A stretch of DNA of 64,000 nucleotides, taken from positions 434,001-498,000 of the forward strand of contig CANNFD010000001.1 of the NCBI GenBank assembly GCA_947503885.1, in the 5' to 3' direction. Source of the stretch: an uncultured Olleya sp. GTDB lineage: Bacteria; Bacteroidota; Bacteroidia; Flavobacteriales; Flavobacteriaceae. Below, piece after piece: positions 58,942 through 64,000 of the stretch (positions are counted from its first letter, which is position 1; each line of letters starts with the position of its first letter). Position numbers and translations under genes: made by a program. The notes under the pieces are model-generated. The model did no database searches. It saw only the letters and a program-made list of their open reading frames with translations, and had not been told where the DNA came from.

Positions 58942-60246
58942 ATGAAAACACCTGTAAATATATTCTGGTTTAGACGCGATTTAAGATTGGATGACAATGT
59001 TGGTTTTTACAACGCCCTAAAATCTGAGCACCCTGTATTACCAATTTTTATTTTTGATAAAGAAATTTTAGACCAACTTCCAGAAGATGACGCACGTGTA
59101 ACTTTTATTTTTCAAACGCTTCAAAACATGCGCAATACACTTCAAGAAAAACACGATAGTAGTATTGCTATTTATTACGGTACGCCAGAAGACATTTTTA
59201 AAACCTTGATTAAGGAGTATACAATTAATACCGTTTTTACAAATCACGATTATGAGCCTTATGCAAAATTGCGGGATAATGCTATTGCAGAAATGCTAAA
59301 CAATAACAATATAAAGTTTAAAACTTTTAAAGATCAAGTAATATTTGAAAAAGACGAAGTGGTTAAAAAGGACGGAAAGCCCTATATGGTTTACACCCCT
59401 TACATGCGTGTATGGAAAGACACCTTTAATGCACAAACGCTAGAAATATACTACACTAATCCGTATTTAAATAATTTAGTAGCACATACTAGGTTACCAA
59501 ATGTTAGCTTGTCTGATATTGGGTTTAAAAAATCGGAACAAAACATTGAAGACTATACGGTAACACCAACGTTAATTCAGGATTATGAAGCCACTAGAAA
59601 TTTTCCTGCTTTGGATGCCACGTCCAAATTAGGCCCACATTTACGTTTTGGTACTGTTAGTATTAGAAAAATGGTTAAAAAGGCTATTGCCGAAAAAAAT
59701 GAAATCTTCTGGCAAGAACTAATTTGGCGCGAGTTTTTTATGCAAATCTTATGGCATTTTCCACACACCCACAAAGACGCATTTAAACCAAAGTACGACA
59801 GAATTGAATGGCGCAATAACGAAACAGAATTTAAAGCATGGTGTGAAGGTAAAACAGGATATCCTTTAGTGGATGCTGGCATGAGACAACTTAATCAAAC
59901 AGGGTTTATGCACAATCGTATCCGGATGTTAGTGGGTAGTTTTTTATGCAAACACTTACTAATCGATTGGCGTTGGGGTGAAGCTTATTTTGCGCAAAAA
60001 CTACACGACTATGACATGTCAAGCAATGTTGGTAACTGGCAATGGGTTGCAGGATCAGGCGTTGATGCCTCACCCTATTTTAGAATCTTTAATCCCACAA
60101 CACAAATTGACAAGTTTGACAAACAGCACAAATACATAAAACAATGGGTACCTGACTATCAAGAGTTAACCTATCCACAACCAATTGTTGACCATAAAGA
60201 AGCTAGAGAACGTTGTTTAAAAGCATATAAAGCAGCAGTTGCTTAA
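58942..60246 (+). CDS. phrB: Deoxyribodipyrimidine photolyase/cryptochrome family
   Basis: The N-terminal alpha/beta domain starts NIFWFRRDLRLDDNVGF. The FAD domain has the characteristic WQELIWREFFMQ, GYPLVDAGMRQL, HNRIRMLVGSFL and SSNVGNWQWVAGSGVDASPYFRIFNP. At 434 residues it is a class I CPD photolyase or a close cryptochrome. The motifs favour repair of UV damage. It is the last gene of the cluster. Confidence 0.93.
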   Translation: MKTPVNIFWFRRDLRLDDNVGFYNALKSEHPVLPIFIFDKEILDQLPEDDARVTFIFQTLQNMRNTLQEKHDSSIAIYYGTPEDIFKTLIKEYTINTVFTNHDYEPYAKLRDNAIAEMLNNNNIKFKTFKDQVIFEKDEVVKKDGKPYMVYTPYMRVWKDTFNAQTLEIYYTNPYLNNLVAHTRLPNVSLSDIGFKKSEQNIEDYTVTPTLIQDYEATRNFPALDATSKLGPHLRFGTVSIRKMVKKAIAEKNEIFWQELIWREFFMQILWHFPHTHKDAFKPKYDRIEWRNNETEFKAWCEGKTGYPLVDAGMRQLNQTGFMHNRIRMLVGSFLCKHLLIDWRWGEAYFAQKLHDYDMSSNVGNWQWVAGSGVDASPYFRIFNPTTQIDKFDKQHKYIKQWVPDYQELTYPQPIVDHKEARERCLKAYKAAVA

Positions 60247-60391
60247 ATTAAGCTATGCATTAACTAGATTTATTGCCCCTAATTTAACCTATTATCAAAA
60301 TCACGTAAACAGGAATAAAAGTTCCTCTTATCATTCCAAAATGGAATAAATTAGAATAAAATACTATATATTTATCCTCATATAACTAGTT

Positions 60392-60413
60392 GCCATTAAT
60401 GCTGAAAAAACCG
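60392..60413 (+). repeat. Possible decayed right end of the cassette repeat
   Basis: GCCATTAATGCTGAAAAAACCG resembles the right end of the two complete repeats (GCCACTAAT...AAAACCG) with some mismatches and one gap. It lies just before the HARE-HTH gene, where a cassette boundary would be expected. Confidence 0.3.
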
Positions 60414-60421
60414 AAAACCGA

Positions 60422-61117
60422 ATGACACTTCACGTTGCAATAGAAAAGTTACTTAAAGAAAAAGGAACTTCTATGTCGACAAACGAAATCGCAACTGAAC
60501 TGAATGAAAACAAATGGTATCAAAAAAAAGATGGTTCTGAAATAAGTGCATTTCAAATTCACGGACGAACAAGAAATTATCCGAATATATTTGATAGACA
60601 AGGTTCGTTGGTAACTCTAAATAATGGGAACTTTAAACCAAATTCAAAACCAATAAAAAAATCGAAAATTAAAAAACCAACTAATCGGAATTCAGACTCG
60701 GACGAGAAATATGTAATTGATTTGTGCGATAGGATTTTGAATTTAAAATCATCAAGACAACACAAATTTGACTTTTTATTAGGAGATATAAATTCCAGAG
60801 GATTTTCTGCAAAATTACCTGTTGATTCTTATTATCAAGAACTAAATCTCGTCATTGAATATCGAGAAAGACAACACACAGAAAGCGTAAGTTTTTTTGA
60901 CAAGCCGAATAGACTAACAGTAAGCGGAGTTCATCGTGGCGAACAACGAAAAATATATGACCACAGACGAGATGAAATTCTACCGAAAAACGGAATTAAT
61001 CTGATTAAAATTTCCTACTTTGATTTTGATTATGACAATAAGAAAAGAATAATAAGAAACGAAAAAGAAGATATTAAAACGATTGAAAAAATAATAGAAA
61101 TCGGAAAAAAGCACTAA
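60422..61117 (+). CDS. HARE-HTH protein with possible nuclease domain (putative defence gene)
   Basis: Residues 1-72 form the winged helix seen in HARE-HTH (HB1/ASXL) domains (STNEIATELNENKWYQKKDG, AFQIHGRTRNYPNIF). After a basic linker, residues 100-231 contain FDFLLGD, LPVDSYYQELNLVIEYRERQ and a GINLIKISYFDFD strand, which resembles PD-(D/E)XK-type restriction enzymes, with E-x-R in place of E-x-K. Codons (AGA, CGA, GGA) differ from neighbours. A repeat begins 4 bp after the stop. I infer accessory, possibly DNA-cutting, function. Confidence 0.6.
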   Translation: MTLHVAIEKLLKEKGTSMSTNEIATELNENKWYQKKDGSEISAFQIHGRTRNYPNIFDRQGSLVTLNNGNFKPNSKPIKKSKIKKPTNRNSDSDEKYVIDLCDRILNLKSSRQHKFDFLLGDINSRGFSAKLPVDSYYQELNLVIEYRERQHTESVSFFDKPNRLTVSGVHRGEQRKIYDHRRDEILPKNGINLIKISYFDFDYDNKKRIIRNEKEDIKTIEKIIEIGKKH

Positions 61118-61121
61118 ATGG

Positions 61122-61248
61122 CAACAACGTGTATAATTAATGGCTGGTTCTCGCCTACTTACGAAAATCCTCGCGGATTTTCTATTCAGTTTGTATTTGC
61201 TAAATTAGGTGCTTAAACACGCCACTAATCATACACAAAACCGTTGTA
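61122..61248 (+). repeat. Cassette-like foldable repeat, copy A
   Basis: About 127 bp, from CAACAACGTGTATAATTA to CCGTTGTA. The left end GTGTATAATTAATGGC and the right end, read in reverse complement as GTGTATGATTAGTGGC, differ at 2 of 16 bases. The centre has a perfect GAAAATCC-TCGC-GGATTTTC hairpin. Copy B has the same order and orientation. It starts 4 bp after the HARE-HTH stop. It resembles an integron attC site or a MITE in shape; no integrase or transposase is in the window. Confidence 0.8.
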
Positions 61249-61367
61249 TTTCATACCGGAAACCAGCCGCATAAAAGCAAAGAGTGCTATCGCACACATT
61301 GCTTTCTTCCCATCGCTGAATGAGAATTTTTTCATAACTTGCCAATATAATTATAAAACTAACAAAG
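61249..61367 (+). other. Non-coding stretch between repeat A and the methyltransferase
   Basis: Holds a hairpin AAAGCAA...GTGC-TATC-GCAC...TTGCTTT (61274-61305) and a stretch (61292-61321, GCACACATT...CCATCGCTGAAT) similar to one before repeat B (63726-63753). No coding frame is supported. Confidence 0.5.
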
Positions 61368-62633
61368 TTGCTTCTAAAGGAAAAAATATCGATTGAACAT
61401 TTTGAAGATAAGAAATTCAAAATTAGACTTATAGAATCTGAAAAAGATACAGCAGCTGCGTTTACACATTATTTACATAACCACAAAAACGGAGTTTCAC
61501 AATTCTACAAACCAGATGCGATAGAACACGTTAAAAATTTATTTGAATACAAGTTTCCTGAAGAAAAAATTTCAAAAGTAGCAGCTGAAGAAGCTTTGCA
61601 ATACTTAATTTTTCGACAAGAAAGTATTCCTTTTCCTGCACCAAAAAAAACTGAATTTAAGTTTATTGACTTATTTGCTGGAATTGGCGGATTTAGGTTA
61701 GCTTTTCAAAACTTGAAAGGAAAATGTGTTTTTACAAGTGAATGGGATAAATATTCAAAGCAAACTTATCAAGCAAATTTCGGAGAAGTTCCATTTGGAG
61801 ATATTACAAAAAAATCAACTAAAAATTATATTCCAGACGGATTTGATGTTTTGTGTGCTGGATTTCCTTGTCAAGCATTTTCAATTGCTGGAAAACGAGG
61901 AGGATTTGAAGATACAAGAGGAACGTTATTTTTTGACGTTGCAGAAATCATAAAAAAGAAAAAACCGAAAGCTATTTTTTTAGAGAATGTAAAAGGTTTA
62001 AGAAGTCACGATAAAGGAAAAACTTTAGCGACAATATTAAATGTTTTACGTGAAGATTTAGGTTATTTTGTCCCAGAACCTCAAATTATGAACGCAAAAG
62101 AATTTGGTGTTCCACAAAACAGAGAACGAATATTTATTGTTGGTTTTAGAAAGGATTTAGGAATTACCGAATTTGAATATCCTAAACCAATCAAGAAAAA
62201 AGTAACATTAGAAGATATTTTAGAAACCGAAACAGTATCTGTAAAATATTATTTATCTGAAACGTATGTAAATACTTTGAGAAATCACAAAGCAAGACAC
62301 GCAAGTAAAGGAAATGGTTTTGGCTACGAAATAATACCAAATAATGGAACCGCAAACGCAGTTGTTTGTGGAGGAATGGGACGAGAAAGAAATTTAGTTT
62401 ATGATTTTAAACTAAAAGATTTTACACCAGTTACAAATATTAGAGGAGAAGTAAACAGAGAAGGAATTCGAAAAATGACACCAAGAGAATGGGCAAGATT
62501 ACAAGGTTTTCCAGACAATTTTAAAATTGTTGTTTCAGACGCTCAAGCATATAAACAATTTGGTAATTCAGTTGCAGTTCCAGCAATTCAAGCTACTGCA
62601 AAAAAAGTTATAGAAAAACTTAAAACTTTATGA
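61368..62633 (+). CDS. HpaII-like C5-cytosine DNA methyltransferase
   Basis: All C5-methyltransferase motifs are present: I (FIDLFAGIGGFRLAF), IV with the catalytic Cys (LCAGFPCQAFSIAGKRGG), VI (FLENVKGL), VIII (QNRERIFIVGF) and X (QFGNSVAVPAIQ). Together with RGGFEDTRGTLFFDV and MTPREWARLQGFP it closely resembles M.HpaII, from memory, so CCGG is the expected site. There are about 95 residues before motif I, some 70 more than I recall for M.HpaII. The start is TTG 61368; no ATG or GTG is available before the motifs. It is coupled by 4 bp (ATGA) to the endonuclease. Confidence 0.88.
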   Translation: MLLKEKISIEHFEDKKFKIRLIESEKDTAAAFTHYLHNHKNGVSQFYKPDAIEHVKNLFEYKFPEEKISKVAAEEALQYLIFRQESIPFPAPKKTEFKFIDLFAGIGGFRLAFQNLKGKCVFTSEWDKYSKQTYQANFGEVPFGDITKKSTKNYIPDGFDVLCAGFPCQAFSIAGKRGGFEDTRGTLFFDVAEIIKKKKPKAIFLENVKGLRSHDKGKTLATILNVLREDLGYFVPEPQIMNAKEFGVPQNRERIFIVGFRKDLGITEFEYPKPIKKKVTLEDILETETVSVKYYLSETYVNTLRNHKARHASKGNGFGYEIIPNNGTANAVVCGGMGRERNLVYDFKLKDFTPVTNIRGEVNREGIRKMTPREWARLQGFPDNFKIVVSDAQAYKQFGNSVAVPAIQATAKKVIEKLKTL

Positions 62634-63709
62634 TTAAAGGAAATAAAGGAGAATGGAGTGAAATTTACACACTTTTTAAACTACTTGGAGACAAACAATT
62701 ATTTCTTGGAAATAAAGAAATTGAAAAATTAGAAGGAATTGTCTATCCAATTTTACGTGTTTTAAGAACCGAGAATAATGGCAATTTTGAATATTCAATC
62801 AAAGATGAAATAATACTTATTTCTGGTGGAGAAGAAGTTTTAAAAATTGCAATTACCGAGTTTAAAGAAAAAGCAAAATTCTTACTTGAAAAGATTAAGT
62901 CTAATAAAGAAAGAACTTTTTCAGTTCCCGAAATTGAAGAATTTATGCAATCTATTAATTGTATTTCTTTAAAAGCAAGTTCAACTGCAAAAACTGACAT
63001 TACAATCGTTGTTCACGACCAAAGAACAAATCAACAACCAACTTTAGGGTTTAGTATAAAATCACAATTAGGAAGTCCTTCTACTCTACTCAACGCAGGA
63101 AAAACAACCAACTTTGTTTTTAAAATTTCAAATTTAAAGTTAAGCGAAACAGAAATTAACAAGATAAATTCTATAGATTCGAGAAGTAAAATAATGGATA
63201 GGATTAATTCTGTTTTAGAATCAAAAGGAGAATTTCATTTTGTAAAAACTGAAAAACAAATATTCTCAAACAATTTAATACTTATCGACAGTAAATTACC
63301 TGAAATCTTATCACAAGTAGTTTATGAATTTTATTCAAGCAAAAATTCAAGCGTTTCAGATTTGGTAGAAAAAACAAATTCTAAAAATCCATTAAATTTT
63401 GATATTTCGAATGAACATAAGTTTTACGAATACAAAATTAAACGATTTTTAACAGACGTAGCTTTAGGAATGATGCCTTCGAAAGTTTGGACAGGACAAT
63501 ATGATGCAACAGGAGGATATTTGATTGTTAAGGAAAGTGGAGACATTTTATGTTATCATATTTACAACCGAAATGAATTTGAAGATTACTTATTTAATAA
63601 TACTAAATTAGACACAGCAAGTTCAAGCAGACACGATTTTGGAACTATTTACGAAGAAAACGGAGAATTACATTTCAAATTGAACTTACAAATCAGATTT
63701 ACGAAATAA
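62630..63709 (+). CDS. HpaII-family type II restriction endonuclease
   Basis: At 359 residues the protein has the length of HpaII and starts MIKGNKGEWSEIYTLFKLL, the pattern I recall for HpaII. Candidate catalytic elements are TDITIVVHDQR and GFSIKSQLGSPSTLLNAG (residues about 120-165). It is expected to cut CCGG. Start ATG 62630 overlaps the methyltransferase stop. Composition is AT-rich, with AGA and GGA codons. Activity is not shown by sequence. Confidence 0.82.
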   Translation: MIKGNKGEWSEIYTLFKLLGDKQLFLGNKEIEKLEGIVYPILRVLRTENNGNFEYSIKDEIILISGGEEVLKIAITEFKEKAKFLLEKIKSNKERTFSVPEIEEFMQSINCISLKASSTAKTDITIVVHDQRTNQQPTLGFSIKSQLGSPSTLLNAGKTTNFVFKISNLKLSETEINKINSIDSRSKIMDRINSVLESKGEFHFVKTEKQIFSNNLILIDSKLPEILSQVVYEFYSSKNSSVSDLVEKTNSKNPLNFDISNEHKFYEYKIKRFLTDVALGMMPSKVWTGQYDATGGYLIVKESGDILCYHIYNRNEFEDYLFNNTKLDTASSSRHDFGTIYEENGELHFKLNLQIRFTK

Positions 63710-63822
63710 GCCAACGCAAGTTCAAGCACATTTATTTTTTTCCATCGCTCAATTCCAACGCTAAAAAATAAAAGAGCTTAAACGCCAACGCTAGCAAGTT
63801 TGCGGAATAAAGTACGAAAATA
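63710..63822 (+). other. Non-coding stretch with repeated CCAACGC words before repeat B
   Basis: CCAACGC occurs three times (about 63711, 63755 and 63785). Bases 63726-63753 resemble 61292-61321 downstream of repeat A. This looks like worn repeat DNA. No coding frame is supported. Confidence 0.5.
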
Positions 63823-63951
63823 CAACAACGTGTATAATTAATGGCTAGTTCTAGCCTACTTACGAAAATCCTCGCGGATTCTTCTATTCGGTTTTTATTT
63901 GCTAATTTAGTTCCTTAAACACGCAACGAAATCATACACAAAACCGTTGTA
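63823..63951 (+). repeat. Cassette-like foldable repeat, copy B
   Basis: About 129 bp, in the same orientation as copy A and closely similar along its full length. The central hairpin is broken by one inserted base (GGATTCTTC). The terminal inverted arms are kept. It stands 113 bp after the endonuclease stop. Confidence 0.8.
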
Positions 63952-63968
63952 AAACATTTGACAAAAAA

Positions 63969-64000
63969 ATGAGAATAGGATATAAAAAAAGACATATGAA
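63969..64000 (+). CDS. Possible start of a gene cut by the window edge
   Basis: ATG 63969 begins an open frame reading MRIGYKKRHM to the end. It follows repeat B by 17 bp, as a next cassette gene might. Only about ten codons are visible, so it could be chance. Confidence 0.25.
   Translation, partial: MRIGYKKRHM

Follow-up and report, generated by a model that had tools for sequence, protein, structure and literature searches.

A probable integron-like gene-cassette array in an Olleya genome, with attC-like sites and a tyrosine recombinase lacking the IntI-specific domain

The described systems closest to the one considered here are the IntI integrons, such as those of class 1 and the sedentary chromosomal integrons of Vibrio. 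They contain a recombinase, an attI site, and co-oriented cassette arrays with short leaders, and they are further characterized by hairpin sites, a GTT junction, evidence for bottom-strand folding, and a cargo of accessory and defense genes. The core consensus of their attC sites is RYYYAAC and GTTRRRY. An extra helix in IntI has been proposed as a requirement for the recombination of folded single strands (PMC4792948). According to PMC9668308, the program IntegronFinder recognizes IntI from matches to both PF00589 and a profile for the IntI-specific domain, and it would therefore miss a system whose recombinase has no such domain. The genome of an uncultured Olleya sp. (GenBank assembly GCA_947503885.1), a member of the Flavobacteriaceae, appears to harbor such a system. 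The window, by which is meant the whole 64,000-nt stretch that was analyzed, corresponds to positions 434001-498000 of contig CANNFD010000001.1 (G000:C1:434001-498000, where G000 is the genome and C1, C6, C8, C13, and so on are its contigs). The region near its right-hand end is very probably the head of an integron-like gene-cassette array, with its repeats serving as attC-like sites, and the system to which it belongs shares with the IntI integrons the features listed above from the recombinase to the cargo.

The original prediction, made from the window alone, pointed to two repeats in the same orientation, one following a HARE-HTH gene and the other a restriction-modification pair, and took the alternation of genes and repeats for cassettes with attC-like sites. 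Both repeats are present and their coordinates were confirmed. Measured from AAC to GTT on the forward strand, they extend from 61123 to 61245 and from 63824 to 63948, with a spacing of 2701-2703, and they match at 90% over 78 nt, 86% over 49 nt, and 100% over 22 nt. Each repeat does have imperfect inverted ends and, at its center, the GAAAATCCTCGCGGATTTTC hairpin. When folded alone as DNA, repeat 1 is more stable than its shuffled versions for the top strand (-16.5 kcal/mol, z -2.45) and the bottom strand (-18.7 kcal/mol, z -2.81) alike, whereas for repeat 2 the difference is only weak (z -1.31 and -1.50). A covariance model, R1, was built from an alignment, A1, of 51 diverse repeats; the scores of the two window repeats, 109.9 and 103.4 bits, are so by construction given that both are rows of A1. 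In the genome there are 32 matches to the repeat at E ≤ 1 with BLAST and 39 to the model at E ≤ 0.1. Two of the latter are weaker, and the other 37 have E ≤ 1.8e-10, such that chance is ruled out. Twelve of these 37 lie on C1, from the first repeat of the window to near the contig end, and the window array, counted from an attI-like site (GTT at 60389) to the contig end, contains at least 12 attC-like sites. Note that many site clusters are found at contig ends because the repeats break assemblies. None of the 4227 Rfam families matched the window between 56000 and 64000 at E ≤ 5, the phages searched gave no match, and a plasmid search matched five records.

Two rounds of profile refinement yielded 303 repeats in 60 fetched loci, and the 229 neighboring pairs among them define 229 cassettes, each extending from a GTT to just before the next GTT. 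For every cassette the seven bases following the starting GTT were compared with the reverse complement of the seven bases preceding the AAC at its own end. The mean complementarity is 6.01 of 7, with 133 cassettes matching perfectly (a first pass had given 5.53 in 125 pairs). Shuffled partners, by comparison, give 2.76 (standard deviation 0.09, maximum 3.06 in 5000 shuffles), and the two ends of one repeat give 2.88 (n = 272). As read from these sequences, then, the complementarity belongs to the cassette lying between two repeats and not to the repeat, and the cassette is the unit. The median cassette length is 727 nt, so that the complementary ends lie ~0.7 kb apart in the array and would come together only when the cassette is excised or circular. 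Unlike in the IntI integrons, the complementarity continues for 7 nt past the GTT and is followed by a fixed adenine: position 8 of the cassette start is A in 229 of 229 cassettes, and it faces C in 200 of them. The GTT and AAC are themselves kept because the sites were anchored on them. The remainder of the attC consensus, in another difference from IntI integrons, is not, with GTTRRRY in five of the 229 cassettes (16.6 are expected from column composition alone) and RYYYAAC in six, which bears out the partial agreement of the end boxes with the attC core that had been noted originally. The longest open reading frame (ORF) lies on the strand of the repeats in 178 cassettes and on the opposite strand in six, whereas 45 have no ORF of 80 amino acids. 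A short cassette without a long ORF (~235 nt plus the site, start GTTGCCTACAATTGCAA) recurs often in the arrays of genome G001 (L082, L083, L084, and L085), where it is interleaved with gene cassettes, and it is also present in the Olleya genome (L071). It may be a promoter carrier.

Folding of both strands had been suggested as a check on the repeats. Both sides of 12 stem pairs vary across the 51 diverse repeats, amounting to 101 cells versus 23.1 when shuffled. The stem covariation is 0.315 as compared with 0.077 for shuffles and at most 0.052 for slid controls; the outer AAC/GTT helix is invariant and hence uninformative in this regard. The mismatches provide a measure of strand preference, given that an A.C pair on top is a G.T wobble below, and the bottom strand can therefore pair at places where the top strand cannot. 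Of 244 unique repeats, 225 have A.C at columns 13/125 and 242 have it at columns 18/119. At the other columns of these repeats the top strand shows 184 cases of A.C, each a G.T below, and seven of G.T. The corresponding numbers are 29 and 4 for the 51 diverse repeats and 35 and 3 for the outer stem of 196 well-matched cassettes, with 22 of those 35 at one position. At the level of sequence, the covariation and the asymmetry point to sites that fold as a single strand, with the bottom strand being the one presumably used.

The original prediction also noted that no integrase was seen. This holds for the window but not for the genome. An intact tyrosine recombinase of 396 residues, located via TIGR02249, is encoded on C6 directly upstream of two repeats. 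Forty-one loci around relatives of this recombinase were considered, and 31 of them also carry repeats, which lie in line with and downstream of the recombinase gene in 30 cases and on the other strand in one. In all seven of the loci that were fetched with both flanks and that hold repeats, every one of the 22 repeats is downstream and co-oriented. Transcription of the recombinase gene in line with the array is a further departure from the IntI integrons. The reading frame is open over at least 360 residues in 34 of the 41 loci, and Arg 231, Lys 256, His 320, Arg 323, His 346, and Tyr 355, which we take to be the catalytic positions from their roles in the family, are invariant in 34 recombinases. 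The sole locus with opposite-strand repeats (L155, L156; genome G010) encodes a recombinase of 272 residues that is without the N-terminal domain.

In 23 of 28 testable loci the start of the first cassette, recognized by a match of six or more of nine bases to its own end, is positioned 37-141 nt past the recombinase match. For three of the remaining five the best match is 0.7-1.3 kb away, as if the first site had been missed, and for two there is none. Within the genus the attI junction reads CATATAACYA^GTT, and position 8 after the GTT is again A at 27 of 27 retained attI sites (three hits were excluded, and one was without a locus). The 25-nt form of attI found in the window occurs in three perfect copies in the genome: besides that of the window, one is found next to the recombinase gene on C6 and another heads the array on C8. 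By blastn, the window segment is 92.2% identical to that on C6 over 103 nt, and the C8 copy is 93.3% identical to the latter over 104 nt. At C13:22314-22706 an attI segment that has diverged (82%) precedes a single attC-like site, and this is probably a fourth, one-cassette platform. The presence of several attI platforms per genome is unlike the situation in IntI integrons. Copies of the 13-nt attI motif number seven in G003, six each in G004 and G005, four in G007, and two in G002, some of these being due to chance since G001 and G004 each had a single match to a reversed control pattern. In G005 and G003 (L135 and L122) the recombinase gene is split or shortened despite six or more attI-like motifs in each. 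The attI segments (L192-L221) are alike within a genome and different between species, as if they had been copied within the genome together with the attI of the recombinase itself. The -7 promoter box of the Bacteroidota is TAnnTTTG. It occurs exactly in none of the 27 attI sites of the genus and in the loose form TAnnTT[TA][GA] in 18, a count without a control, and a promoter within attI is a lead only.

The features of the window array, all on the forward strand, can be followed from left to right. Its left chromosomal flank is an ORF from 58942 to 60246 that by resemblance encodes a photolyase-type protein, and the last part of this gene was found in all nine other genomes searched in the genus. 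It is followed by the attI-bearing segment (60289 to 60391), homologous to those on C6 and C8, the first portion of which (60289 to 60351) is a remnant of the 3' end of a recombinase gene corresponding to residues 376-396, the last 21 codons (tblastn, 71% identity, E 0.004). The attI-like core, CATATAACTA^GTT, occupies 60379 to 60391. Cassette 1 extends from 60389 to 61242, and its start, GTTGCCATTAATG, is complementary to its own end, AAATGGCAAC; put differently, the opening from 60389 is GTTGCCATTAATGC and the reverse complement of the end is GTTGCCATTTAGT. What had been regarded as a third, decayed repeat end at 60392-60413 is the start of this cassette, directly after the attI-like site. 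The gene of cassette 1 (60422 to 61117) encodes 231 residues with a weak N-terminal resemblance to HARE-HTH (Pfam, E 0.0018, 19.1 bits, under the cut-off of 25.9). Cassette 2 (61243 to 63945; start GTTGTATTTCATAC, reverse complement of its end GTTGTATTTTCGT) carries the restriction-modification pair. The putative C5-cytosine DNA methyltransferase, listed with a TTG start, lies at 61368 to 62633 (Pfam DNA_methylase, 2.4e-105; PADLOC MTase_II, 2.9e-128), and the predicted HpaII-type restriction endonuclease at 62630 to 63709 (Pfam RE_HpaII, 1.7e-140; PADLOC REase_II, 2.9e-123). Cassette 3 starts with GTTGTAAAAC at 63946 and continues past the end of the window at 64000; the next site is found at C1:498371-498496, about 370 nt beyond it. 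Like the clusters of attC sites lacking an integrase that are known as CALIN, the window array has sites with no integrase gene alongside. Unlike CALIN, it retains an attI-like site and a recombinase remnant, with an intact recombinase gene elsewhere in the genome, and for this reason it is regarded as an orphan platform.

Evidence for cassette movement is provided by comparisons within and between genomes. Among 138 pairs of homologous cassettes with bodies of at least 300 nt, 59 match end to end, three of them between genomes, with unlike neighbors; many of the partial pairs reflect sites missed by the profile. Up to the GTT of attI, the photolyase loci of the sister species G004 and G005 show 95% identity. 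Collinear identity (96%) returns only at a later repeat and the right flank, and between these points lie 4.26 kb and 2.27 kb of unlike sequence, respectively, apart from a 245-nt stretch of the G004 variable part that resembles (75%) a place further to the right in G005. At four orthologous attI sites of the two species, the ~1.5 kb downstream are without homology in three and share 368 nt at 93% in one. Within the genus an attI after the photolyase gene is found only in the Olleya genome, G004, and G005. In the other seven genomes no attI segment was found at that position, and the 8 kb fetched from each contain no repeat save for a weak partial match in G006 (E 0.002). The repeat is not confined to the genome of the window, and its neighbors vary between species. 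An attI-like start of the array, an upstream and co-oriented recombinase, and a platform and flank that persist while the cassettes differ can all be read from these alignments. The cassette array with attC-like sites that was originally proposed is strongly backed by the own-end complementarity, the in-line recombinase, the covariation, and the differing cassettes.

In the domain plan of its catalytic part the array recombinase is closest to XerA, XerC, and XerD, from which it differs in being tied to cassette arrays and in having ~95 extra N-terminal residues. It differs from IntI both in this extra domain and in the absence of the IntI-specific domain, there being ~42 fewer residues than in IntI1 between the conserved lysine and the HxLRH motif. 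The gap is seen in 12 of 14 displayed family rows, and the other two are broken frames without that region. The family profile matches the IntI structure 2a3v (VchIntIA, also IntI4) in two pieces around the IntI domain, with 62 residues of 2a3v unmatched versus 19 profile positions. Its best matches among solved structures are the XerC-like protein 4a8e and XerA (5hxy), followed by 2a3v. The spacing from KG..DR to HxLRH is 64-66 in nearly all of the array recombinases (one has 70, and a few are unreadable) as compared with 106-108 in nine IntI loci. Against TIGR02249 the recombinase scores 203.4 bits, its second-best NCBIfam match, where the cut-off is 265, and no protein in the genome exceeds that cut-off. 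The XerA-type family NF040815, titled 'site-specific tyrosine recombinase/integron integrase', is narrowly passed (221.4 versus 220 bits). The first ~95 residues of the full recombinases have no good match to a Pfam family. The idea of a HARP domain arose from a reading of the sequence in light of the family pattern and was examined by profile comparison. The top solved match is 4o66 (SMARCAL1 HARP, E 0.028), Pfam HARP is matched by two of 28 members (best 0.0016) and DUF5710 by five (best 9.1e-5), and hhalign gives a 92% probability against a 42-residue fragment. These matches are suggestive of a HARP-like domain. HARP binds forked DNA, and a role as hairpin reader is a lead.

Several observations weigh against the interpretation of the region as an integron-like array. 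Thirty-three of the 229 cassettes have four or fewer of seven matches, some of which are accounted for by missed sites, and the AAC or GTT is absent from its expected place in 31 of the 303 repeats. The position of the recombinase, though not its orientation, is biased in most loci because they were fetched mainly downstream. In L156 the repeats are on the strand opposite to the recombinase, and its frame is short or broken in seven of 41 loci, G005 and G003 among them. Across 37 Flavobacteriaceae genomes, recombinase and sites occur together in 33, sites only in two, neither in two, and recombinase only in none (Fisher p 0.009). This association is in favor of the interpretation, but the presence of the recombinase was set at E < 1e-40, a threshold picked after the values were seen. 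G008 and G028 have sites but no recombinase match under it, and the link is looser with the less sensitive single-sequence BLAST. The top strand of the repeats folds as well. Two columns hold 164 of the 184 A.C cells, leaving 20 versus 7 elsewhere, and binomial figures on the strand asymmetry overstate it by treating related repeats as independent. Finally, the HARP resemblance is weak.

If the array is integron-like, its origin can be explained in more than one way. One explanation, somewhat less likely than not, is that of a second, separately derived kind of integron. Here a Xer-like recombinase, lacking the IntI domain, would have gained a HARP-like module for reading folded single-stranded sites and used it to build arrays across the Bacteroidota; one recombinase would serve the several attI platforms of a genome in trans, and the platforms would themselves spread in the genome. 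The array could alternatively be that of a genuine IntI integron, its recombinase a diverged IntI in which the IntI domain was lost or never retained and the system a lineage of ordinary integrons. The passing of NF040815 and the second place of TIGR02249 are in keeping with this, as is the plasmid search, in which nearly all of the matches listed outside Persicobacter and Myroides were of the IntI type. The motif spacing and the failure of the core-site consensus argue otherwise. In the phylogenetic analysis the IntI rows form one clade (SH-aLRT 100) that excludes the array recombinases, and the latter make up one side of a branch (SH-aLRT 92), but the AU test does not reject a joint clade of the two (p-AU 0.199). 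Of the two trees, both quick and without bootstrap, the first (114 rows) left Flavobacterium enshiense and its relatives unresolved, and the second contained 61 rows chosen from the 114 with long branches excluded. On balance, a diverged IntI seems rather unlikely.

The remaining explanations dispense with an integron altogether. The repeats could be stable and unrelated elements between accessory genes (MITEs, REP-like elements, or transcription terminators), with no movement of cassettes. Solitary copies do exist in the genome, for example at C11:60404 and C3:262201, and the central hairpin could serve as a terminator. Around 271 repeats, however, target-site duplications of widths 3, 4, 5, 8, and 9 show no excess over shuffles (for width 6 there are four versus a mean of 1.4, standard deviation 1.1), the complementarity joins the ends of units ~0.7 kb apart, homologous cassettes match end to end, and cassettes differ at a shared platform. 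We thus regard stable repeats as exceedingly improbable. The MITE-type array offered as an alternative in the original prediction, or an insertion sequence, is ruled out by the lack of excess duplications and by a complementarity that is the cassette's. Although MITEs are also short and repeated with inverted ends, the mobile unit here would be a gene segment plus one site, and no known insertion sequence was found to own the repeat. It is likewise very unlikely that cassettes move by homologous recombination between repeats with the recombinase as a bystander at the array heads. The repeats of any one genome are sufficiently similar for recombination, and two genomes have sites without a recombinase match, but homologous recombination would neither keep the ends of each cassette complementary nor fix A at position 8 of every cassette start and attI site, and at 30 of 31 loci the recombinase and the arrays are in line.

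In the integron-like interpretation, each attC-like site would close one cassette and abut the start of the next. The recombinase would bind the hairpin of the cassette bottom strand and recombine it at the GTT with attI or another attC, and cassettes would thereby be placed behind the platform in the reading direction. The intact recombinase from C6 presumably acts in trans on the orphan platform of the window, and the N-terminal HARP-like domain may contribute to hairpin reading, thereby substituting for the IntI domain that is missing.

The original prediction envisaged a mobile-cassette system specific to flavobacteria. The cassette system is upheld, whereas the restriction is not, given that the same grammar is seen in Rufibacter and Arundinibacter and that the model matches a Persicobacter plasmid. 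Matches to the site model are present in 35 of 37 Flavobacteriaceae genomes, at least 58 of them in each of six, and in seven of 23 genomes from other families of the order. Four model matches were observed on a Tenacibaculum finnmarkense plasmid (L160), and thus sites occur on plasmids as well. Of 80 loci, 69 were tested for chains of cassettes obeying the own-end grammar downstream of the recombinase. Chains of at least three were found in eight and of exactly two in seven; shuffles reached two, and the opposite strand reached two once. Those with at least three include Lutibacter, Algibacter, Winogradskyella, Seonamhaeicola, Flavobacterium enshiense, Arundinibacter, and Rufibacter, and their repeats differ in sequence and length. 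No chain was found in the rows from Firmicutes, Spirochaetota, and archaeal metagenome-assembled genomes. Eight of 12 IntI loci had enough upstream sequence and gave chains of 0 or 1, but these stretches may be without cassettes and are no firm control. A survey of the phylum gave matches to the recombinase at E ≤ 1e-45 in 91 of 296 genomes, many of these matches covering the catalytic part alone.

With respect to cargo, 101 of the 178 repeat-strand ORFs were scanned. At 1e-5, 71 Pfam and 216 PADLOC families were matched by at least one ORF, with few members each, and many of the PADLOC rows represent one protein matching several models. An AbiGi-like gene and a candidate PADLOC family are found further along the window array, and a gene for ThsB (TIR-like) in the C8 array. 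From these matches, some of the cassette genes are anti-phage in nature. In one cassette of the C8 array (L068:1603-2989) the ThsB-like TIR gene adjoins a gene weakly resembling a 2TM effector.

No description of such a system was found among the matches listed from the open-licence literature, preprints being outside that search, and the integron-like system, widespread in flavobacteria, is apparently previously undescribed. If the interpretation is correct, a large reservoir of cassettes, part of them defense genes, would be added to a phylum thought to be nearly integron-free. Because the recombinase lacks the extra IntI helix, the system would also provide a direct test of the need for it, as the same result would be achieved without that helix.

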